From the NCBI GenBank assembly GCA_024743095.1, contig JANSXF010000002.1, positions 1 to 64,000 on the forward strand: DNA of 64,000 nt, written 5' to 3'. Below, in pieces: positions 3,177 through 14,612 of this stretch. Positions within the stretch are counted from its first letter, which is position 1; every line of letters starts with the position of its first letter. The notes beneath the pieces are model-generated. The model was not told the origin of the DNA. It did not search any database and saw only the letters and a list, made by a program, of their open reading frames with translations. Source of the stretch: Flavobacteriaceae bacterium. Lineage in GTDB: Bacteria > Bacteroidota > Bacteroidia > Flavobacteriales > Flavobacteriaceae. Made by a program: the position numbers and the translations under genes.

Positions 3177-3244
3177 GAATAGAACCTTACATGCAGAAAA
3201 CAGATAAAGTTCTGTTAAGCAAAACAATAAATGTTAATATTTTG

Positions 3245-3252
3245 TAGTTTTG
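3245..3252 (+). promoter_or_regulatory. -7 element (TAGTTTTG) of the copper block
   Basis: TAGTTTTG matches TAnnTTTG and ends only 7 bp before ATG 3260. It lies in a tandem TTTTGTAG-TTTTGTAG repeat (3241-3255 region). No -33 TTG is seen at the usual distance, which would fit a promoter that needs an activator, such as the HMA-AraC protein encoded further downstream. The transcript would be leaderless or nearly so. Confidence 0.5.
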
Positions 3253-3259
3253 TAGTCGA

Positions 3260-3646
3260 ATGAAACAGATTTTTCATCAAATACTATCCTCTTTGATGGC
3301 CCTTTTGGTCTTGGCCTCTACCGTTTCGTGGACGGTGGACAAGCATATTTGTATGGGCCGGGTGATGGATATTTCCCTGTTCGCCCATGCCGATGATTGC
3401 GGAATGGATATGGATATGGAAACATCCTGTTGCGATGAGGAATCGTTCACCGTTCAAGGTCAGGACGACCTAAAAATTGCTTTGGAAAAATTTGATTTGG
3501 GCCAACAGGTTTTCTTGGTAAGCTTTGTCCAAACTTATTTTCAACTTTTCGATTTAGACTCTGACGGACCAAGCACTTTCAATGCGTACAACCCACCACC
3601 GTTGATACGGGATGTGCAGGTTCTTGACCAGATCTTCCTTATTTGA
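3260..3646 (+). CDS. Small Cys-rich envelope protein, HYC_CC_PP type
   Basis: This is a 128-residue Bacteroidota protein with one N-terminal membrane segment or signal (residues 8-26) followed by three landmarks: HIC (residue 29 on), TSCC (about residue 55) and a late PPP. These correspond to the 'HYC_CC_PP' family, usually found at the head of heavy-metal efflux clusters. A Met/Asp-rich stretch (CGMDMDMETSCC) could bind Cu(I). The biochemical role is not established; the position in front of cusA points to metal binding or delivery. It is the first gene of the copper block and starts right behind a -7 element. Confidence 0.75.
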   Translation: MKQIFHQILSSLMALLVLASTVSWTVDKHICMGRVMDISLFAHADDCGMDMDMETSCCDEESFTVQGQDDLKIALEKFDLGQQVFLVSFVQTYFQLFDLDSDGPSTFNAYNPPPLIRDVQVLDQIFLI

Positions 3647-3738: not shown

Positions 3739-6700
3739 ATGCTGAACAAAAGCATCAAATTTTTAATAGAGAACAAATTGGTGGCCGTGTTGCTCCTGCT
3801 GTTATTTATGGCATGGGGCATGGTGAGCACTCCCTTTAATTGGGATACCGGTGGCATTTTGCCAAACAATCCCGTTGCGGTGGACGCTATTCCCGATATC
3901 GGGGAAAACCAACAAATTGTTTTTACCAAATGGCCCGGACGTTCTCCTCAGGATATCGAAGATCAGATTACCTACCCGTTGACCACCTCCTTATTGGGCA
4001 TTCCAGGGGTCAAGACCGTTCGTAGTTCATCCATGTTCGGTTTTTCGAGCATCTACATAATTTTTGAGGAAGACGTGGAATTCTACTGGAGCCGCAGTCG
4101 CATTTTAGAGAAACTCAATTCGCTTCCCAACAACTTATTGCCCGATGGGGTAAACCCTGCCTTGGGGCCGGATGCCACAGCTTTGGGACAGATTTTTTGG
4201 TACACCCTGGAAGGTCGTGACAAAGAGGGAAAAGTTACTGGAGGATGGGACTTACAGGAACTCCGTAGCGTACAGGATTACTATGTAAAATATGCGCTTT
4301 CTTCCGCATCTGGGGTGTCCGAAGTGGCATCCATTGGAGGATTTGTGCAGGAATATCAAGTAGATGTGGACCCCGAACTGATGAAGCAGTACAATGTGGG
4401 GTTGGATCAGGTGGTAAAGGCCGTTAAACAGAGCAATAGGGATATTGGTGCGCAGACGTTGGAAATCAATAAAGCTGAATATTTGGTGCGTGGCCTAGGC
4501 TTACATCAAATCTTTGGACGATATCCAAAACGCGGTGGTCACGGCAACGGATTATACCTCTATCCGTGTTCAGGATGTGGCCCGTGTTTCTTTGGGCCCC
4601 GCCGTGCGTCGAGGAATTTTGGATAAGGAGGGTGCTGAAGTGGTCGGTGGTGTGGTGGTTGCCCGTTATGGGGCCAATCCATTGGAAGTGATCAATAATG
4701 TAAAGGAAAAAATCAAGGAATTGAGTGCGGGCCTTCCCTCGAAAGTTTTGAAAGATGGTACCACTTCACAACTCACCATTGTTCCTTTTTATGATAGAAC
4801 GGAACTCATCCAGGAAACCCTTGGTACTCTTAATGAAGCTCTGACCCTCGAAATTTTGATTACCATTTTGGTGATTGTGGTGATGGTATTCAATCTAAGG
4901 GCTTCTGTTTTGATCTCTGGATTGCTACCTGTTGCTGTTTTGATGGTTTTCATTTCGATGAAGATGTTTGGTGTTGATGCCAACATTGTGGCATTGTCAG
5001 GTATTGCCATAGCTATTGGAACCATGGTCGATGTCGGGGTGATTCTTTCCGAAAATATCATCAGGCACATGGATGGGAATAAGGGGGGGCTATCTATAAA
5101 TGAAGTGGTTTACAATGCAACTTCCGAGGTTTCAGGAGCTATTTTGACAGCGGTGTTGACGACTATCATCAGTTTTATTCCAGTGTTTACGATGGTAGGG
5201 GCCGAAGGAAAACTTTTCAGGCCATTGGCCTTTACCAAAACCATGGCTTTGACGGCATCCATTATCGTAGCCTTGTTTTTGATTCCACCCTTTGCAGCTA
5301 TCATTTTTAGAAAGAAAGGTTCAAATCAAGTGCTCAAATATATTTGGAACGGCATTTTGATTGTTTTGGGATCGGTTGCCATCGCCTTCGGATATTGGCC
5401 GGGCTTGGCCCTGATTGCCTTTGGTGCTATAGGAATCCTCAAATTGAGAAATATTGTTGATGAGAAGAAAGCAGAAATGCTCAATGTGGGTAGTTGCGTT
5501 GCCATCATTGTTTTCTTATTGGCCACGTATTGGAGGCCTTTGGGCTTTGATCGTAGCATAGGTGTCAATCTCATCTTTGTTGGATTGATTTGTGGTGTCT
5601 TGCTCGGTGTTTTCTATCTCTTCAGACAATACTACAGCCGAATCTTAACGTGGGCCTTGGAAAACAAATTGTTGTTCCTGTCCATTCCGGCGGTCATCGT
5701 TGTTTTTGGATTCTTCATTATGCGGAACACAGGTCAGGAGTTTATGCCCTCATTAAATGAAGGTTCGTTTTTGTTGATGCCAACCTCATTGCCGCATTCT
5801 GGAGTTGAAGAAAACAAAAGAGTGGTGCGGCAGCTGGATATGGCCGTGGCTACCATTCCGGAAATCCAAACAGTGGTCGGAAAAGCAGGAAGAACAGAAT
5901 CCGCTTTGGACCCTGCTCCACTCTCCATGTACGAGAATATTATTCAGTACCGATCGGAGTACCAAAAAAATGAAGCGGGAAGTCCACAGCGATTTAAGGT
6001 CAATGCTGACGGTTATTTTGAATTGCGTAACGGAAAAGTGCTTGCCAATCCAAATTTGGAGGTAACCAATGAACGAAACTATAAGGACATCCACGTAAGC
6101 GAACCCTTGCGAATTGATAGGGGTTTATTGATTCCGGACCATGATGGGGAATATTTTAGAAACTGGAGACCAGGGATTCAAGGTCCAGATGACATTTGGA
6201 ATGAAATCGTGAAAGTTACCAAATTGCCTGGGGTCACTTCGGCTCCCAAATTACAGCCCATAGAAACACGATTGGTGATGCTTCAAACAGGGATGCGTGC
6301 GCCCATGGGCATTAAGGTAAAAGGTCAGGACTTGAAAGAAATTGAAAACTTTGGTCTTCAACTGGAACCTATTTTAAAAGAAGCTACCGGAGTTAAGGAT
6401 GAAGCGGTTTTTGCTGATAGAATTGTGGGCAAGCCTTATCTGCTTATCGATATTGACCGCGAAAAACTCGTTCGCTACGGTCTCGTGATAGAAGACGTTC
6501 AGCAAATTTTGGAGGTTGCACTTGGTGGGATGACGCTGACACAAACTGTTGAAGGAAGGGAACGTTACGCAGTACGCGTAAGATACCCAAGAGAGCTACG
6601 GGAAAACCCGACCGATATAGGAAATATTTATGTTCCCGTACAAAAGGGCAGCCCTGTTCCGTTGAGCGAATTGGTGACCATCCGATACGAGCAAGGACCC

Positions 6701-7480
6701 CAAGCCATTAAAAGTGAGGATACTTTTTTGGTGGGCTACGTGCTGTTTGATAAGCAAGAAGGTTATGCTGAAGTTGATGTGGTTGAAAATGCCCAGGCCA
6801 AGATTTTGGAAAAAATAGAAAGTGGTGAATTGGTGGTGCCCAAAGGCATTGGCTATCAATTTACAGGCTCGTATGAAAATCAGTTGCGAGCCAAGAAAAC
6901 CTTGTCCATAGTGGTTCCGTTGGCATTATTGATCATCTTTTTGATCCTGTACTTCCAGTTTAGGTCAGTGGCCACATCCTTGATGGTCTTTTCAGGGATT
7001 ATGGTGGCATTTGCCGGTGGATTTTTAATGATTTGGTTCTATGGTCAGGATTGGTTCCTCAACTTCAGTTTTATGGGTGAAAACCTGCGCGACCTTTTCC
7101 AAATGCATGCCATCAACCTGAGTGTGGCCGTGTGGGTCGGATTTATTGCCCTTTTTGGTATTGCCACGGATGATGGGGTGGTGATGGCCACCTACCTCAC
7201 CCAAACTTTTGATAGGAACAAACCGGAAAGCTTGAAGGGAATCCGTGCTTCGGTATTGGAAGCAGGTGAAAAACGTATCAGACCTTGTTTGATGACCACG
7301 GCGACCACTATTTTGGCACTATTGCCTGTTTTGACCAGTACAGGAAGAGGAAGTGACATAATGATACCTATGGCCATTCCAAGTTTTGGGGGCATGTTGA
7401 TTGCCTTGATTACTTTATTTGTAGTGCCTGTATTGTTCAGTTGGAAAAGTGAAATGCAACTTAAGATGCAAAATCGATGA
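3739..7480 (+). pseudogene. cusA: CusA/CzcA-type heavy-metal RND efflux permease, split by a +1 frameshift
   Basis: This inner-membrane RND antiporter exports Cu(I)/Ag(I)-type metals through a CusCBA tripartite channel. Codons 1-254 read in the frame of ATG 3739. At 4501/4502 one extra T shifts the frame, and the family sequence continues without loss (Y-I-K-S-L-D-D-I-Q) to the stop at 7480. The corrected protein is about 1,246 residues, matching the long flavobacterial CusA form. TM4 carries GTMVDVGVILSEN (about residue 425), and the matching C-terminal segment is GIATDDGVVMATYL. Everything apart from the one base is intact, so this is either a very recent mutation, a sequence error or a recoding event. 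Its stop overlaps the ATG of the TolC gene (ATGA). Confidence 0.85.
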
Positions 7481-8697
7481 GAAAAATAGTCGTTTATATA
7501 GTTTTTGCTTTTGTAGCAATCGGGCTAAAGGCCCAGTCATTGGAAAGCTATCTTCAAGAGGCCCAGCAGAACAGCCCCATGATCCAGGCCTTGGAACTAC
7601 GCTACAACATTGCCAAGGAAAAGGTCAACGAGGTAAATACCTTGCCCAACACCACTTTGGGTGCCGGGTATTTTGTGAGCGAACCAGAAACCAGAACAGG
7701 GGCGCAACGGGCGAAGTTTTCGGTGTCGCAGATGTTGCCTTGGTTCGGAACTATCACGACCCGTGAAAATTATGCAAGTTCCATGGCGGAGACCGAATAT
7801 GCGGAAATTGTAATCGCCAAACGAAAATTGGCCCTTTCCCTAGCACAATCGTACTACAGATTATTTGGAATCCAGGCCAAACAAAAGATACTTCAGGAAA
7901 ATATTCAATTACTAAAGACCTATGAAACTTTGGCCTTGACCTCTGTTGAAGTGGGAAAGGCATCTGCTGTGGATGTACTGAAACTTCAAATTCGCCAAAA
8001 CGAATTACAGCAGCAGAAAGATGTGTTGGGGCAATCTTACACCGCAGAGCAGGCGGTGTTCAATAATCTGTTGAACCGTGACGAAAGTATTGCCGTTGAT
8101 GTGGTGGATAAAATGAATATTCCAGAAAATGATCCTATACTCAACAAAGAGGATTTGAGCCTAAACCCGGAATTATTGAAATACGATCAATTGTATGAAT
8201 CAGTCACGCAATCCGAATTGCTCAATCAAAAAGAAAATGCCCCAAGCTTTGGGGTTGGTCTCGATTACATTCCTGTCTCGCAACGTGATGATATGGCTTT
8301 TAGCGATAACGGGAAGGATATTGTAATGCCAATGGTCACTTTTTCAGTGCCGATTTTCAACAACAAGTTTAAATCGACCACCAAGCAGAACGAACTTCGT
8401 CAAAAGGAAATTGAACTCCAAAAAGAGGAGCGCTTGAACGTTTTGGAAAACGCCTATGCCAACGCCATTTCGCAGCGGAACCAGGCTCGAATAGCCCATC
8501 AAACACAAGAAAAGAACTTAAAACAGGCCAAGGATGCCGAAGAAATCCTGATCAAGAATTACGAAACGGGAACGATCAACTTTAACGATGTGTTGGATAT
8601 TCAAGAGTTACAGTTAAAATTTCAAACCAATCAAATACAATCAGTGCAGTTGTATTACCTGCAATCCGCTATCATCAATTATTTAATAAACAAGTAA
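7477..8697 (+). CDS. TolC-family outer-membrane efflux protein (CusC-like)
   Basis: This is the outer-membrane channel of the CusA-type pump. The 406 residues start with a signal peptide (about 1-19, ending KAQ), followed by two long helical OEP repeats rich in Gln, Glu and Ala heptads. Typical TolC features are LAQSYYRLFGIQ near residue 125, TVEVGKA-like ALTSVEVGKASAVDVL, and in the second repeat ILIKNYETGTINFNDVLDIQ. The ATG overlaps the cusA stop by four bases, indicating translational coupling. The short length is normal for the CusC branch in Bacteroidota. Confidence 0.9.
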   Translation: MRKIVVYIVFAFVAIGLKAQSLESYLQEAQQNSPMIQALELRYNIAKEKVNEVNTLPNTTLGAGYFVSEPETRTGAQRAKFSVSQMLPWFGTITTRENYASSMAETEYAEIVIAKRKLALSLAQSYYRLFGIQAKQKILQENIQLLKTYETLALTSVEVGKASAVDVLKLQIRQNELQQQKDVLGQSYTAEQAVFNNLLNRDESIAVDVVDKMNIPENDPILNKEDLSLNPELLKYDQLYESVTQSELLNQKENAPSFGVGLDYIPVSQRDDMAFSDNGKDIVMPMVTFSVPIFNNKFKSTTKQNELRQKEIELQKEERLNVLENAYANAISQRNQARIAHQTQEKNLKQAKDAEEILIKNYETGTINFNDVLDIQELQLKFQTNQIQSVQLYYLQSAIINYLINK

Positions 8698-8713: not shown

Positions 8714-9019
8714 ATGAGAACAAACATTAGAACAATTATCGGAATCGCATTCGCTTCAGTATTGGTGCTTGCCGTATCCTGCAAGGGCAAAACAGAGGAG
8801 GTAAAAGAAACTTCTACAGAGGCCACTATGGATCATGAGGGACATGGGATGGACACTATGGAAACTGCCGATAAGCAAGGCAAGGAGTACACCTCCAAAT
8901 ATGTGTGCCCAATGCACTGCGAAGGTAGTGGTAGCGGCGAAGAGGGTAAATGCCCCGTTTGCGGTATGACCTATGTATTGAACGAGGATTTTCAAATGGA
9001 AGGCCACGACCAACACTGA
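8714..9019 (+). CDS. Heavy-metal-binding-domain lipoprotein
   Basis: This 101-residue lipoprotein has the lipobox LAVSC (Cys about residue 23), a His/Met-rich linker (HEGHGMDTME) and one HMBD zinc-ribbon-like module, YVCPMHC...GKCPVCGM, at residues 63-86. The same module recurs in the P-type ATPase and the adaptor of this cluster. It probably buffers Cu in the periplasm or hands it to the pump. It lies 16 bp after the TolC gene and 23 bp before the regulator, within one operon. Confidence 0.85.
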   Translation: MRTNIRTIIGIAFASVLVLAVSCKGKTEEVKETSTEATMDHEGHGMDTMETADKQGKEYTSKYVCPMHCEGSGSGEEGKCPVCGMTYVLNEDFQMEGHDQH

Positions 9020-9042: not shown

Positions 9043-9594
9043 ATGCGCATTAAAGTAAAAAATATGGTTTGCGACAGATGTAAGGCAGTCCTAAATCAAG
9101 AATTTGGGAAGGCTGGCATTGAAGTGGTGCAGATGGAGCTGGGGGAAATTCAGTTTGCTGAAAATGCCCAGAGACAAATGGAACGTATTGGGGAGATTCT
9201 GACAAAAAATGGTTTTGAATTGATAGATGATCTAAGCAACAGTTACATCGCTGAAATAAAAAAACATTTGATCAATGCCCTGCAAAACGATAGTCATCAG
9301 AATCTCTCAAAGTACCTTTCCGAAAAAATAAACAAGGAGTATTCTGTGTTGAGCAAAATGTTCAGCATAAAAGAAGGGTTGACCATTGAAAAATACTTTA
9401 TCCTTTTAAAAATAGAGCGGGTAAAGGAAGAGATTCAAATGGGTGCCAAAACATTTTCAGAAATCGCATACGACCTAAATTATAAGAGCAGTAGTCATTT
9501 GGCCAAGCAGTTCAAATCCATAACAGGTCTGTCCATGAGCGATTATAAGAAATTAAAAGATTGGAATAGGAAGCCTTTAGATCAAATTGTATAA
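9043..9594 (+). CDS. HMA-like domain fused to AraC helix-turn-helix, putative copper-responsive regulator
   Basis: The protein has 183 residues from ATG 9043. Residues 1-65 look like a heavy-metal-associated ferredoxin-like fold with a CxxC (NMVCDRCKAVL, Cys 10 and 13). Residues 85-175 are an AraC-type double HTH with IERVKEEI, FSEIAYDLNYKSSSHLAKQFK and TGLSMSDYKK. There is no cupin or other AraC sensor domain, so the HMA unit is the only evident ligand site and Cu(I) binding is inferred. It sits between the metal-binding lipoprotein and copA and probably controls the whole block. Frames opening further upstream overlap the lipoprotein gene and lack family similarity. Confidence 0.85.
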   Translation: MRIKVKNMVCDRCKAVLNQEFGKAGIEVVQMELGEIQFAENAQRQMERIGEILTKNGFELIDDLSNSYIAEIKKHLINALQNDSHQNLSKYLSEKINKEYSVLSKMFSIKEGLTIEKYFILLKIERVKEEIQMGAKTFSEIAYDLNYKSSSHLAKQFKSITGLSMSDYKKLKDWNRKPLDQIV

Positions 9595-9661
9595 AAAAGA
9601 CCCATAATTGTAAAAAGCATCCAACTGGTGTTCAGCTAGTTTTGAATAAAAAACAAACAAG

Positions 9662-12157
9662 ATGAAACATACCTATCACATACATGGAATGAGCTGCAAT
9701 GGTTGTAGAAACCATGTGGAGCAAACCCTATCCAAAGTTGATGGGGTCAACGCAGTTGAGGTCAATTTGGAAAAGGCCGAAGCTGTGATCGAGATGGAGG
9801 AGCATATTCCGATCGAAAGGTTCCAAGAAGCTTTACAAAATGATGGAGGAGGGTATAGTATTCATACGAACGCTGATCATAAACCTAAGGAGAAAAAGAA
9901 GAAGCCGAGTTTAAATGGCAGCGGTACATTTTATTGTCCCATGCATTGCGAGGACGATAAAACCTACGACAAACCTGGTGATTGTCCCGTTTGTGGAATG
10001 GATTTGGTAGAGGAGCACAATACATCATCCAGTTCCACACAACAATGGACTTGCCCCATGCATCCCGAAGTGGTGGAGGATGGTCCAGGTTCCTGTCCAA
10101 AATGTGGAATGGACCTCGTGCCCAAGGAGCCCGAAGCCAGTGCGGAGGAAAGAGCCTATAAAAAATTGCTTGCAAAGTTTTGGGTGGCATTATCATTTAC
10201 ATTGCCCATCTTTTTGATTGCCATGAGCGATATGATTCCCAATAATCCGCTTTATGAATTAATGGTGCCACAATACTGGAATTGGGTTCAGTTTGTACTT
10301 TCACTCCCCGTGGTCCTTTATGCCACATGGATGTTCTTTCAACGCGCTTACCGAAGTACCAAAACATGGAACTTGAACATGTTCACCTTGATCGGAATTG
10401 GCGCAGGGGTAGCATTTGTATTTAGTGTATTTGGGTTATTGTTCCCTAGTTTTTTTCCTGATCAGTTTAAGGGTGGAACAGGGGCCGTTCATGTTTATTT
10501 TGAAGCGGCAACCGTAATCCTCACTTTGGTGCTTTTAGGTCAATTGTTGGAGGCAAGGGCACATAGCAAAACCAACAATGCGGTAAAGGAACTATTGAAA
10601 TTGGCACCGAACAAAGCTGTTCAAGTTGTTGATGGGGAAGAAGTAGAGGTAAGTATCGATGACATTGAACTTGGAGATATCTTACGGGTAAAACCAGGAG
10701 ATAAAATTCCTGTGGATGGAATTATTACCGAAGGTGAGACCTCTGTGGATGAGTCCATGATCACAGGGGAACCTATCCCTGTCGAAAAAGGGGTTGAGGA
10801 TAAAGTGAGCAGCGGTACCATTAACGGAAACCGATCCTTTTTGATGAGAGCCGAGAAGGTGGGCAGTGATACCCTGCTCTCCCAAATCATCAACATGGTC
10901 AACGAAGCCAGTCGAAGTCGCGCACCTATTCAAAATTTGGCCGATAAAGTATCCGCTTACTTTGTGCCAACGGTTGTTATTATTTCTATGCTGACCTTTG
11001 GGGTGTGGGCCATTTGGGGGCCACAACCCGCTTATGTGTATGCCTTGATCAATGCCATTGCAGTTTTGATCATTGCTTGTCCATGTGCATTGGGACTTGC
11101 CACGCCAATGTCCGTAATGGTTGGAGTGGGAAAAGGAGCCCAAAATGGAGTGCTTATCAAAAATGCAGAAGCTCTGGAAAAAATGGCCGATGTTGACACC
11201 TTGATCATTGATAAAACCGGGACCATCACTGAAGGAAAACCCACTTTTGACAAATTGGAAACATTTACAGAGGCCTACTCCGAAGAGGATTTGCTGCAAT
11301 ACCTGATTTCTGTAAATGCCAATAGTGAGCATCCTTTGGCCCAAGCGACGGTGAAATATGGTAAGGAAAAGAACATCAAAATCCTGAAGACAGAATCCTT
11401 TAATGCTGTCACAGGAATGGGTGTTGAAGGTAAGGTCAAAGACTCGGAAATTCATTTGGGAAACATTAAACTGATGGAAAAAACCAATGTGGAGATTTCT
11501 GATCAGATCAGGCATAGGGTCAAAAAGGCACAAGAAAGGGGAAAAACAGTATCCTATCTGGCCATTGATGGAGAGTGTCATGCATTTGTGTCCATTGGTG
11601 ATAAAATCAAGGAGACAAGCAGTAAAGCCATCAAAGCGATTCAGGATAAGGGAATTTCGGTAATCATGCTTACGGGCGACAACGCAACTACGGCAAAAGC
11701 AGTTGCCGGCGAACTGCATTTAGATGACTTTAAGGCCGAGACTTTGCCCGAGGATAAAATGAAAGAAGTGGAGCGCTTGCAGAGTGAAGGAAAAGTGGTT
11801 GCCATGGCGGGTGATGGTATCAACGATGCTCCGGCATTGGCCAAAAGTGACTTGGGTATTGCAATGGGTACCGGTACCGATGTTGCCATAGAGAGTGCCA
11901 TGATCACTTTGGTAAAAGGCGACCTTCATGGTATTGTAAAGGCACGGAACCTAAGTGAGGCGGTCATGAAAAATATAAAACAGAACTTGTTCTTTGCGTT
12001 GATCTATAACACCATCGGCGTGCCAGTCGCAGCGGGTGTGCTCTATCCCTTCTTTGGGGTCTTGCTCTCACCGATGATCGCCGCCTTGGCCATGAGCTTT
12101 AGCTCGGTGTCCGTTATCGCCAATGCATTAAGGTTACGAACTAAATCAATCGACTAA
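9662..12157 (+). CDS. copA: Cu(I)-exporting P1B-type ATPase with HMA and two HMBD modules
   Basis: It pumps Cu(I) from cytosol to periplasm. The domains of the 831 residues are as follows: HMA with GMSCNGC (9-15); two HMBD modules, CPMHC...CPVCGM (about 97-118) and CPMHP...CPKCGM (about 130-150); eight TM helices; the actuator TGE (ITGEPIP); the ion-path CPC (IACPCALG, about 471); phosphorylation site DKTGTITEG (Asp about 517); [18 protein letters not shown]7 carries YN and TM8 MSFSS, the P1B-1 copper signature. The next genes follow at 7 and 3 bp, so they are cotranscribed. A 67-bp gap separates it from the regulator. Confidence 0.95.
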
Positions 12158-12164
12158 GACAAAA

Positions 12165-12872
12165 ATGGTAAAACGGACTACAGCGGTCAAGATTAGAAAG
12201 GCCCACAGGTACTTGGGTATATTTTTGGGCATTCAATTCATTATGTGGACGGCCAGCGGATTATATTTTAGCTGGACGGATATTGACGAGATCCACGGAG
12301 ACCACTTTAGAAACATGGATTATCAACCCGCTGCATTTGATGGTCTTATCGGGTTTTCCCAAATCAGCAACCCCGCTAAAATCCGTTCGTTGAGTTTAAA
12401 GGAAATCGCAGGGAAACCCTATTATTGGATCAATAATAAGTTTTTGGTGGATGCCAAAACAGGCAATCCTAAAGAAGGGATTTCGAAAGAAGAAGCTCTC
12501 GCTGTTGCCGAGCGTGAAATGTCATCTGAATTAAAGATAAAGGAAGTTGAGATACTTAATGAGACCGATAGGCATCACGAGTACCGCGAAAAAAAGTTGC
12601 CTGCTTATGTCATCAGTTATGATTCCCCGGAAAATATCAAGGCTTACGTTTCAGTTGCCGATGGATCGTTCCAGACAGTTAGGCACCGGGATTGGAGGTG
12701 GTTCGATTTTCTTTGGATGACCCACACCATGGATTACGAAGGTCGGGACGATTTCAATACCACCGTACTTCGAGCTTTCTCCCTTTTGGGATTGATTACC
12801 GTGTTGAGCGGATTTTTACTTTGGTTTACCTCCTCACCAACAATGAGGAAAGTCGTTAAACGAAAAAAATAA
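12165..12872 (+). CDS. PepSY-domain membrane protein
   Basis: This 235-residue protein has a TM helix near residues 14-36 (YLGIFLGIQFIMWTASGLYF), a periplasmic region with PepSY-like elements (ISKEEALAVAERE; AYVSVADGS), and a second TM near residues 203-225 (LLGLITVLSGFLLWF) preceded by the conserved MTHTMDYEGRDD. Such two-TM PepSY proteins occur with copper and iron transport genes, where a role in reduction or electron transfer has been suggested. None is proven here. It sits 7 bp after copA and 3 bp before the adaptor gene. Confidence 0.8.
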   Translation: MVKRTTAVKIRKAHRYLGIFLGIQFIMWTASGLYFSWTDIDEIHGDHFRNMDYQPAAFDGLIGFSQISNPAKIRSLSLKEIAGKPYYWINNKFLVDAKTGNPKEGISKEEALAVAEREMSSELKIKEVEILNETDRHHEYREKKLPAYVISYDSPENIKAYVSVADGSFQTVRHRDWRWFDFLWMTHTMDYEGRDDFNTTVLRAFSLLGLITVLSGFLLWFTSSPTMRKVVKRKK

Positions 12873-12875
12873 AGT

Positions 12876-14612
12876 ATGAAAAAGGAAAACATCATTTATA
12901 TCGGAATTGCCGTCGTGGCCGGCCTATTGATCGGATACCTCATATTTGGCGGTAATGCACAAACAACCACTTCGGATGAACATGACCACGGCACGGAAAT
13001 CGCTTCGGGCGAAATGTGGACCTGTTCCATGCACCCGCAGATCATGCGGCCAGAACCGGGCTCTTGTCCTATTTGTGGCATGGATTTGATCCCTGCTGAT
13101 AATGGAGGCGAGGGATTGGCCGCTAACCAAATTAAAATGACGGAAAATGCCATGGTATTGGCAGGTGTGGAAACCGTAATGGTCGGAGCTGGGGTCGATG
13201 GTGAAGAAAGTATTAAGATTTCCGGTAAAGTCGCGGTCAACCAACAATCGGATGCAGTTCAGTCAGCGTACTTTGATGGTAGAATAGAAAGTATCAGTGT
13301 CAATTTTCAAGGGGAAGAAGTACGAAAAGGTCAAAGGTTGGCCACCATTTATGCCCCGGCATTGGTTGCGGCGCAGCAGGAATTACTAACGGCGGCCAAT
13401 GTAAAAGAGTCCCAACCACAATTGTACAAAGCCGTTCGGAACAAATTAAAGCTTTGGAAGTTGTCGGATGCTCAAATAAATCAAATTGAAAGCTCTGGAC
13501 TGGTACAGGAAAACTTTCCAGTGTATTCCAATGTGGGCGGAACGGTTTCCGAGATCATGGTGGAGGAAGGCGATTACATCAAAACAGGTTCCCCTTTGGT
13601 GAAAGTGGCCAATTTAAGTTCCGTTTGGGCCATTTTTGATGCCTATGAAAACCAGTTGAGCCTAATTAAGGAAGGTCAAACATTGAATGTGACCACAAAC
13701 TCCTATCCAAATGAAACCTTTGGTGCCAAAATTTCCTTTGTTGCTCCCTTGATGAACAAGCAAACCAGAACATTGGAGGTACGTGCAGAGCTCGACAACA
13801 AACAAGGAATGCTCAAACCTGGCATGTTCGTGCAAGCGAAGGTCGAGGTGACAAACAAGACAGATGGTGAGGTGTTGACCATTCCTGAAAGTGCTGTTTT
13901 ATGGACGGGTAAGCGCTCCTTGGTGTACGTGCAACCCAACCCGAACAATTCAACCTTTGAAATGCGTGAAGTGGAGCTCGGAAATTTAATGAATGGAAGT
14001 TACGCTGTCATTTCAGGATTGCGGCCGGGAGAAATGGTCGTGGCCAAAGGGACTTTCACAGTAGATGCTGCTGCTCAATTACAGGGTAAAAAATCCATGA
14101 TGAACCAAGGAGGGGAAACCATGCAAATGGGCCACGAAGGACATTCTAAAATGGGAGGAACTATGCAGATGGATTTTTCCCAAGAGGCGGAAACAAAGTT
14201 CGGTGAACTTTTAAAGGTCTATTTGGACTTAAAGGATGCCCTGGTCGCTTCAGATCGGGGCCAAGCACAGAAATTGGCACGGAAGGGTGCTGGAATGGCT
14301 TCTCAAATCAATGGGATGCAAATGGATGACATGGGCAAAAGCCATATCGAACAATTGGAGAACCAACTAAACGATATGGGTTCAAAAAGTAACTTGGAAG
14401 GTCAACGTGAAACATTTGTGTTGCTCTCCCAAAACATGATTCAAATTGGTCAACAAATGCAAGGTCTGGAGGTGAAACTCTATGTGCAACACTGCCCCAT
14501 GGCCAATAATGATACGGGTGCCAATTGGCTGAGTTTGGAAGAGGAAATCCGAAATCCGTATTATGGCGATGCTATGCTCACCTGCGGAAGCGTGGTGGGT
14601 AGAATTGACTGA
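12876..14612 (+). CDS. cusB: CusB-type RND periplasmic adaptor with HMBD and C-terminal DUF3347-like domain
   Basis: This is the membrane-fusion subunit linking the CusA-type pump to TolC. The 578 residues contain an N-terminal TM anchor (6-26), one HMBD (MWTCSMHPQ...CPICGM, about 46-70), then the barrel-sandwich, alpha-hairpin and beta-barrel domains (GKVAVNQQ to VVAKGTFTVDA). A Met/His-rich linker follows (MQMGHEGHSKMGG), and then a C-terminal domain with YVQHCPMAN and MLTCGS, the DUF3347 pattern that resembles periplasmic copper-binding proteins. It is the last gene of the block and is far from cusA in gene order, an unusual arrangement (A-C ... ATPase ... B). Confidence 0.88.
   Translation: MKKENIIYIGIAVVAGLLIGYLIFGGNAQTTTSDEHDHGTEIASGEMWTCSMHPQIMRPEPGSCPICGMDLIPADNGGEGLAANQIKMTENAMVLAGVETVMVGAGVDGEESIKISGKVAVNQQSDAVQSAYFDGRIESISVNFQGEEVRKGQRLATIYAPALVAAQQELLTAANVKESQPQLYKAVRNKLKLWKLSDAQINQIESSGLVQENFPVYSNVGGTVSEIMVEEGDYIKTGSPLVKVANLSSVWAIFDAYENQLSLIKEGQTLNVTTNSYPNETFGAKISFVAPLMNKQTRTLEVRAELDNKQGMLKPGMFVQAKVEVTNKTDGEVLTIPESAVLWTGKRSLVYVQPNPNNSTFEMREVELGNLMNGSYAVISGLRPGEMVVAKGTFTVDAAAQLQGKKSMMNQGGETMQMGHEGHSKMGGTMQMDFSQEAETKFGELLKVYLDLKDALVASDRGQAQKLARKGAGMASQINGMQMDDMGKSHIEQLENQLNDMGSKSNLEGQRETFVLLSQNMIQIGQQMQGLEVKLYVQHCPMANNDTGANWLSLEEEIRNPYYGDAMLTCGSVVGRID

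Follow-up and report, generated by a model that had tools for sequence, protein, structure and literature searches.

In Enterococcus, copper export is jointly controlled by a separate HMA chaperone, CopZ, and a winged-helix repressor, CopY. Ada and the archaeal TRASH-Lrp copper regulators (CopT) join a cysteine-type metal domain to a DNA-binding domain, AraC-type in the case of Ada; Ada senses DNA methylation damage. The I1 and I2 half-sites of AraC have a 21-bp spacing. YbtA, the regulator of the Yersinia high-pathogenicity island, is AraC-type and responds to a copper-siderophore complex; to our knowledge it has no HMA domain. In one paper the MerR, ArsR and CsoR families are given as cytoplasmic regulators of copper (PMC6769254), and another describes how the Yersinia high-pathogenicity island responds to copper in a siderophore-dependent way (PMC8725597).

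The regulator described here is encoded in a 64,000-nucleotide stretch of a Flavobacteriaceae genome (contig JANSXF010000002.1, positions 1 to 64,000), referred to below as the window. Its gene is intact and complete at the place given by the initial annotation, 9043–9594 on the + strand, with an ATG at 9043, a stop codon at 9592–9594 and a product of 183 amino acids. As the annotation also stated, it lies within a copper export cluster, all of whose genes are on the + strand. The cluster begins with a gene for a HYC_CC_PP family protein (3260–3646), followed by a cusA-like RND pump gene (3739–7480) in two overlapping frames (3739–4626 and 4514–7480), a gene for a TolC-like outer membrane efflux protein (7477–8697), and a gene for a small HMBD-containing protein (8714–9019) directly upstream of the regulator gene. 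Downstream are copA (9662–12157), the proposed target, whose product is a Cu+-type P1B-1 ATPase with an N-terminal HMA domain and two HMBD stretches, a gene for a PepSY_TM protein (12165–12872), and a gene for a CusB-like periplasmic adaptor with HMBD and DUF3347 (12876–14612). The closest relatives of the regulator (93% identity and below) are found in Allomuricauda/Flagellimonas (Flavobacteriaceae), and the gene order of the cluster is mostly kept in 33 near-relative loci. In the five close relatives examined, the cusA-like gene runs uninterrupted for about 1250 codons; by this comparison its two frames in the window would reflect a frameshift or an assembly error.

The product has an HMA-AraC architecture. 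Residues 1–61 (9043–9225) are a metallochaperone-like HMA domain, and residues 65–183 (9235–9591) are an AraC-type DNA-binding domain. The latter had been placed at residues 85–175; the domain is there, and that range is a little short. It is matched in Pfam by HTH_18 (E 1.3e-10, residues 94–170) and HTH_AraC (E 4.1e-7), both of which also match 39 of 39 diverse family members. The AlphaFold2 model (mean pLDDT 87.5, pTM 0.62) has a β-α-β-β-α-β arrangement over residues 2–61 with the AraC helices after residue 61, and aligns with MarA (1bl0) over residues 65–183 (VIA-align Z 14.6, 115 aligned residues, rmsd 2.5). The sequence C10-D-R-C13 (9070–9081), the proposed metal site and part of a conserved NMVCxRC motif, is at the start of helix 1, which spans residues 11–23 in the model. 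Apart from the HMA domain, no sensor domain was seen in the protein in silico.

The HMA assignment, also made in the initial annotation, is borne out by profile, structure and family-profile searches, though Pfam is silent: the regulator has no match to PF00403 at the gathering score, and just 2 of 39 diverse members match at E≤0.01 (best 0.0019). Residues 1–61 of the model align with Atx1 (2xmv; Z 8.7, 58 aligned residues, rmsd 1.8). AcuB (Z 8.3) and an ACT domain (Z 7.8) are also among the structure matches, so a Z near 8 is weak alone for so small a fold and the assignment is carried by the sequence evidence. An hhalign comparison of 65 family N-termini with 88 HMA domains from other ORFs of the same loci, family members excluded, gives a probability of 97.0 (E 8.5e-11, 60 columns); the highest of 40 column shuffles is 7.7, and the reversed alignment gives 3.7. 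Searching with a profile built from 39 members recovers copper HMA domains of known structure, including those of ATP7B (E 1.8e-7, positions 4–62) and CopZ (E 7.8e-5, positions 2–63), with all such matches within positions 2–72. In the other direction, of 74 family ORFs, 22 have an N-terminus matched by an ATPase and chaperone HMA profile whose 64-row seed contains no family members; for six the E-value is 1e-3 or lower, the best being 2.7e-5. The family HMM comprises 66 rows, one of which is a 17-residue fragment that is absent from the N-terminus comparison.

The regulator is distinct from CueR, CsoR, CopY and two-component copper control, as had been proposed: NCBIfam and Pfam reveal no such model or domain in it. 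The NCBIfam scan at E≤0.001 returned eight models, all AraC-type and far under their cut-offs, with the CueR model TIGR02044 not among them, and the eight Pfam families found at E≤1 include none typical of CsoR, CopY or two-component copper regulators. PADLOC gave no match.

Family members are present in 182 of 395 Bacteroidota genomes (E≤1e-8) and in 142 of 299 genomes of the taxonomic family to which the source genome belongs (E≤1e-12). The CxxC is present in 115 of 116 members. Among 39 diverse members the invariant positions of the HMA part include M8, V9, C13, L33 and G34, and C10 and R12 are nearly invariant. Plasmid matches covering at least 80% of the query number 29 records, from genera that we take to be all Bacteroidota; 15 Hymenobacter plasmid records have matches, and the family is therefore also carried on plasmids. 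Where the matches in the 32 plasmid records listed carry an annotation, it is AraC-family, helix-turn-helix, response-regulator or hypothetical protein, and no metal is named. No description of the HMA-AraC family was found among the matches listed from the open-access literature.

The source genome has three paralogues of the regulator, with 37–40% identity. One of them (L071, contig C45, 6522–7079) is the sole exception to the CxxC, with SLRC in its place and the first cysteine lost. It lacks a P1B ATPase within 5 kb as well as a 21-bp repeat (see below) that reaches 11 of 14 letters, and is, judged by its sequence, a natural loss-of-sensor case. Another, L070 on contig C88, encodes a protein nearly identical to L077 of genome G198, and one HYC gene is preceded by the same DNA in both. 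This likeness across two genera suggests recent transfer.

The metal type of the neighbourhood was assigned from the nearest P1B ATPase within 5 kb by short motifs, and five of the proteins were checked with NCBIfam. Of 91 CxRC members, 59 are near a Cu+-type P1B-1 ATPase (33 of them close orthologues of the window gene, the other 26 from the wider set), seven are near other CPC-type ATPases (six with Cu-like ends and one cut off), four are near a CPH type, and 18 have no P1B ATPase within 5 kb. The remaining three are near a Zn/Cd-type ATPase, always on the opposite strand, and each of those three ATPases also adjoins a CxHC paralogue. The 24 CxHC members are mostly near Zn/Cd-type ATPases (18); four are near an SPC type, one is near a CPC type on the opposite strand, and one has none. 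Scores against the copper-subfamily model TIGR01511 (cut-off 397) are below the cut-off for two Zn/Cd-type ATPases (372.8 and 368.2) and 633 for the copper ATPase, and two SPC-type proteins, at 398 and 407.5, are so barely over it that the score does not settle their metal. TIGR01512 does not discriminate, as the copper ATPase passes it as well.

In a tree built without the two inner CxxC residues, the 24 CxHC rows form one clade (SH-aLRT 100, quick method), so the switch between CxRC and CxHC is a single event. Many of the CxHC loci were chosen from one taxonomic family since CxHC had been noticed there. A histidine in the motif is also seen in small HMA chaperones that neighbour Cu+-type ATPases (CQHC, CNHC, CHHC), so a histidine inside the CxxC does not by itself indicate zinc. 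Because of the single event, the targeted loci and the histidine of these copper-side chaperones, the link between R/H and metal is a hint and not a statistical result. The copper-only scope of the initial annotation is nevertheless too narrow, as the CxHC clade lies mostly beside Zn/Cd-type or SPC-type ATPases; going by gene neighbourhood, these homologues may likewise sense Zn/Cd or the ion of the SPC-type ATPases.

Two places in the cluster were considered as the operator of the regulator. The initial annotation had pointed to 3200–3260, upstream of the first gene, where the element TAAANTTCTGTTAANC (3204–3220, + strand) belongs to the HYC-cusA promoter and is strongly conserved in the genus. 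Among 30 fetched pattern matches from Flavobacteriaceae, 20 have TAAANTTCTGTTAANC before an HYC-cusA operon, 54–61 bp ahead of the HYC gene, often with a second TGTTAA about 19–20 bp further on and a TANNTTTG-like box (3204–3252 in the window). In eleven of these 20 genomes a search at E 1e-12 finds no family member. Of the 20 operons, four were observed to include the regulator (the window, L073, L209 and L210); L196 and L203 are truncated by contig ends. Near matches of the element in the source genome number 26, against 22 for reversed controls, which is no excess. The region was rejected as the operator because the element is present in genomes without the regulator and its near matches are not in excess; TAAANTTCTGTTAANC is probably the site of a different regulator.

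The better operator candidate, from comparison of sequences, is the direct repeat before copA. It has the form AATNNTRYA/AATNNTRYA with its halves 21 bp apart, at 9585–9614 directly 3' of the regulator gene. Half-site 1 (AATTGTATA, 9585–9593, + strand) overlaps the last codons and the stop codon of the regulator gene, and half-site 2 (AATTGTAAA, 9606–9614, + strand) follows 21 bp later. An alignment of the regulator-copA gap of the window and 23 relatives has a conserved AATTGT past the stop codon, and its partner is 21 bp upstream in the last codons. The conservation of half-site 1 is partly coding, since in Flavobacteriaceae it lies within conserved C-terminal codons. Far relatives have the same repeat layout, also past the stop codon in non-coding DNA, and the repeat of the CxHC clade is a TGCA-type variant.

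At spacing 21, 53 of 88 members have at least 12 of the 14 letters and 22 are perfect, compared with 3.1 for random windows; 14 other spacings give 4–23 of the 88 members, with at most one perfect. The consensus was drawn up after inspection of the family, and the sole independent test is a hold-out of 38 regions (40 less two on contigs of the same length as those of L066 and L067). Of these, 22 pass at spacing 21, seven perfectly, whereas shuffles average 2.1 and never exceed 6; 12 other spacings give 2–13 and none perfect. When the repeat is sought from the stop codon onward in one member per 60% identity cluster, 13 of 38 pass and eight are perfect (eight other spacings: 3–6 of 38, none perfect). 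Spacings 19 and 24 in the 88 members and 23 in the hold-out are also somewhat over chance, and 35 of the 88 members and 16 of the 38 hold-outs are below 12 of 14 at spacing 21. Upstream of the regulator gene itself the repeat is weak (4 of 38 clusters). Upstream regions of 16 copA genes without an adjoining regulator reach 12 of 14 letters in five cases and 13 in none; four of the five have half-site 2 on the copA start codon, and three of those four are one sequence.

In the source genome, the only exact match to the copper-type repeat is at 9585–9615. With up to one mismatch there are six places, against four for reversed controls, and at four of the five inexact ones no metal gene was recognised by eye. 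A one-mismatch copy on contig C88 (14436–14466) lies about 0.8 kb behind the C88 paralogue and before small genes that include one for an HMA protein, and is possibly a second site, to judge from its position. In the 299 genomes, a scan with AAATTGTA-N14-AATTGT finds matches in 94, most of them away from any regulator, with many in the reversed control as well; in six genomes, including the source, the match is at or within about 50 bp of the 3' end of a regulator gene (coordinates compared by eye). In genome G516 (contig C8, 188885–188933), overlapping matches 21 bp apart form three tandem half-sites behind a family member.

The proposed copA promoter has a −7 box, TAGTTTTG (9637–9644, + strand, from sequence and alignment), 31 bp from the start of half-site 2 at 9606. 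Promoters of Bacteroidota have −7 and −33 consensus elements, and class II activators of the AraC type have their site in place of the upstream element, ahead of the −7 box. Half-site 2 spans about −42 to −32, where the −33 element would stand. Among 73 operators taken from 107 members, the exact TANNTTTG box is at 31 (12 operators) or 32 bp (six) from the start of half-site 2 in 18. The range of 30–42 bp includes 19 such boxes (shuffle mean 0.4, maximum 3), and within 90 bp the box occurs at two other positions, once each. A relaxed −7 box is found at 31–32 bp in 30 of the 73. The 107 members include 20 of the 22 passing hold-outs; of the two left out, L251 and L252, one has the TANNTTTG box and one does not.

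We consider it likely that the protein is a one-component regulator in which the CxxC of the HMA domain senses Cu(I), the AraC domain binds the 21-bp repeat, and copA is activated in class II fashion. The two folds, the CxxC conservation, the gene context, the repeat with its spacing and, where a box is found, its fixed distance were computed; from these we infer Cu(I) as the ligand, dimerisation, and activation rather than repression. The cytoplasmic regulator would have its probable Cu(I) sensor in the N-terminal CxxC and would bind DNA through its C-terminal domain. Two subunits, probably a dimer and perhaps linked by a metal ion shared between their CxxC sites, would occupy the AATTGTA/AATTGTA repeat at 9585–9614. 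Half-site 2 would replace the −33 element, so that RNA polymerase would be recruited to the promoter at 9637–9644 and copA switched on, with the genes after copA expressed by read-through. The extension of this scheme to a Bacteroidota-wide family, in which a chaperone domain serves as sensor, metal bridges the two CxxC sites of the active dimer, the residue inside the CxxC helps to set the metal (R for copper, H for Zn/Cd or the ion of SPC-type ATPases) and all members are class II activators with a single operator plan, the 21-bp direct repeat between regulator gene and exporter, is plausible and somewhat short of probable; its R/H part is weakened by the histidine in the small copper-side chaperones.

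A repressor on the same repeat, released from DNA by the metal so that copA is derepressed, is unlikely. A protein on half-site 2 could also block the polymerase, and many metal sensors of export genes (CsoR, CopY, ArsR) are known generally to repress; however, half-site 2 stops short of the −7 box, and 18 of the 19 operators with a box at 30–42 bp have it at 31–32 bp. An activator is favoured because half-site 2 is at the −33 position and at this fixed distance from the box. It is quite improbable that the CxxC is instead a thiol-disulfide switch or a docking site with a signal other than metal. The CxxC is also a redox motif, and an arginine within it is absent from the ATPase and small-chaperone HMA motifs compared, but the fold is that of HMA domains, the near-invariant CxxC occurs close to metal ATPases, and the only member without the first cysteine lacks both a P1B ATPase within 5 kb and a repeat at 11 of 14 letters.

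Control of the whole operon by the regulator from a promoter at 3204–3260 is very unlikely. The strong conservation of TAAANTTCTGTTAANC in the genus and the frequent second TGTTAA would fit such a role, but its half-site is unlike the family repeat, 11 of the 20 genomes have no match to the regulator, and the regulator was seen in four of the 20 operons. The regulator could, last, serve chiefly as a chaperone that passes copper to CopA, or dock with the HMBD proteins, with a minor or degenerate AraC part. Small HMA proteins do occur within 2.5 kb of several members, often directly before the ATPase. Against this, both AraC-type Pfam families match every one of the diverse members and the repeat adjoins the gene in many taxonomic families, and we give the chaperone role very little credence.

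If the preferred reading, a copper-sensing activator of copA, is correct, a likely metal-export sensor can be named for a large phylum, in nearly half of the sampled Bacteroidota genomes. It would come with a defined DNA site and would be a compact part for metal biosensors, and metal selectivity could be studied in variants of a single scaffold that occur naturally next to copper and zinc pumps. At its cut-off, TIGR02044 finds CueR in none of 198 Bacteroidota genomes; weaker MerR-type matches to this model occur in 124 of them, with up to 137.6 bits against the cut-off of 147.4. CsoR-family proteins are present in 62 of the 198, including the source genome, and HMA-AraC therefore need not be the sole copper sensor. 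The one in the source genome (contig C89, 9651–9821; 40.9 bits, cut-off 22.8) lies roughly 4 kb away from a further regulator paralogue.

HMA-AraC is a variant of the one-component regulators, widespread and, in the open-access literature searched, not described. CueR (MerR), CsoR and CusRS/CopRS likewise place export genes under copper control, cytoplasmic or periplasmic, and their folds are unrelated to it. With the AraC/XylS proteins (AraC, MarA/SoxS) it shares the DNA-binding domain and, in its candidate operator, a paired direct repeat at 21 bp; its sensor is an HMA fold, in contrast to the cupin sugar-binding domain of AraC, and it is only 183 residues long. Yersinia YbtA is also AraC-type and tied to copper, but differs in ligand and sensor domain, and the metal domains of Ada and CopT have folds other than HMA. 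With the HMA proteins (CopZ, Atx1, CopA/ATP7B; PF00403) the family shares the β-α-β-β-α-β fold and a CxxC at the start of helix 1. Those proteins have GMxCxxC, whereas the regulator family has NMVC[x][R/H]C and a conserved LG between strands 2 and 3, is fused to a DNA-binding domain, and is mostly under Pfam's reach. In CopY and CopZ an HMA domain and a regulator are likewise paired, as two chains; in HMA-AraC they are one.
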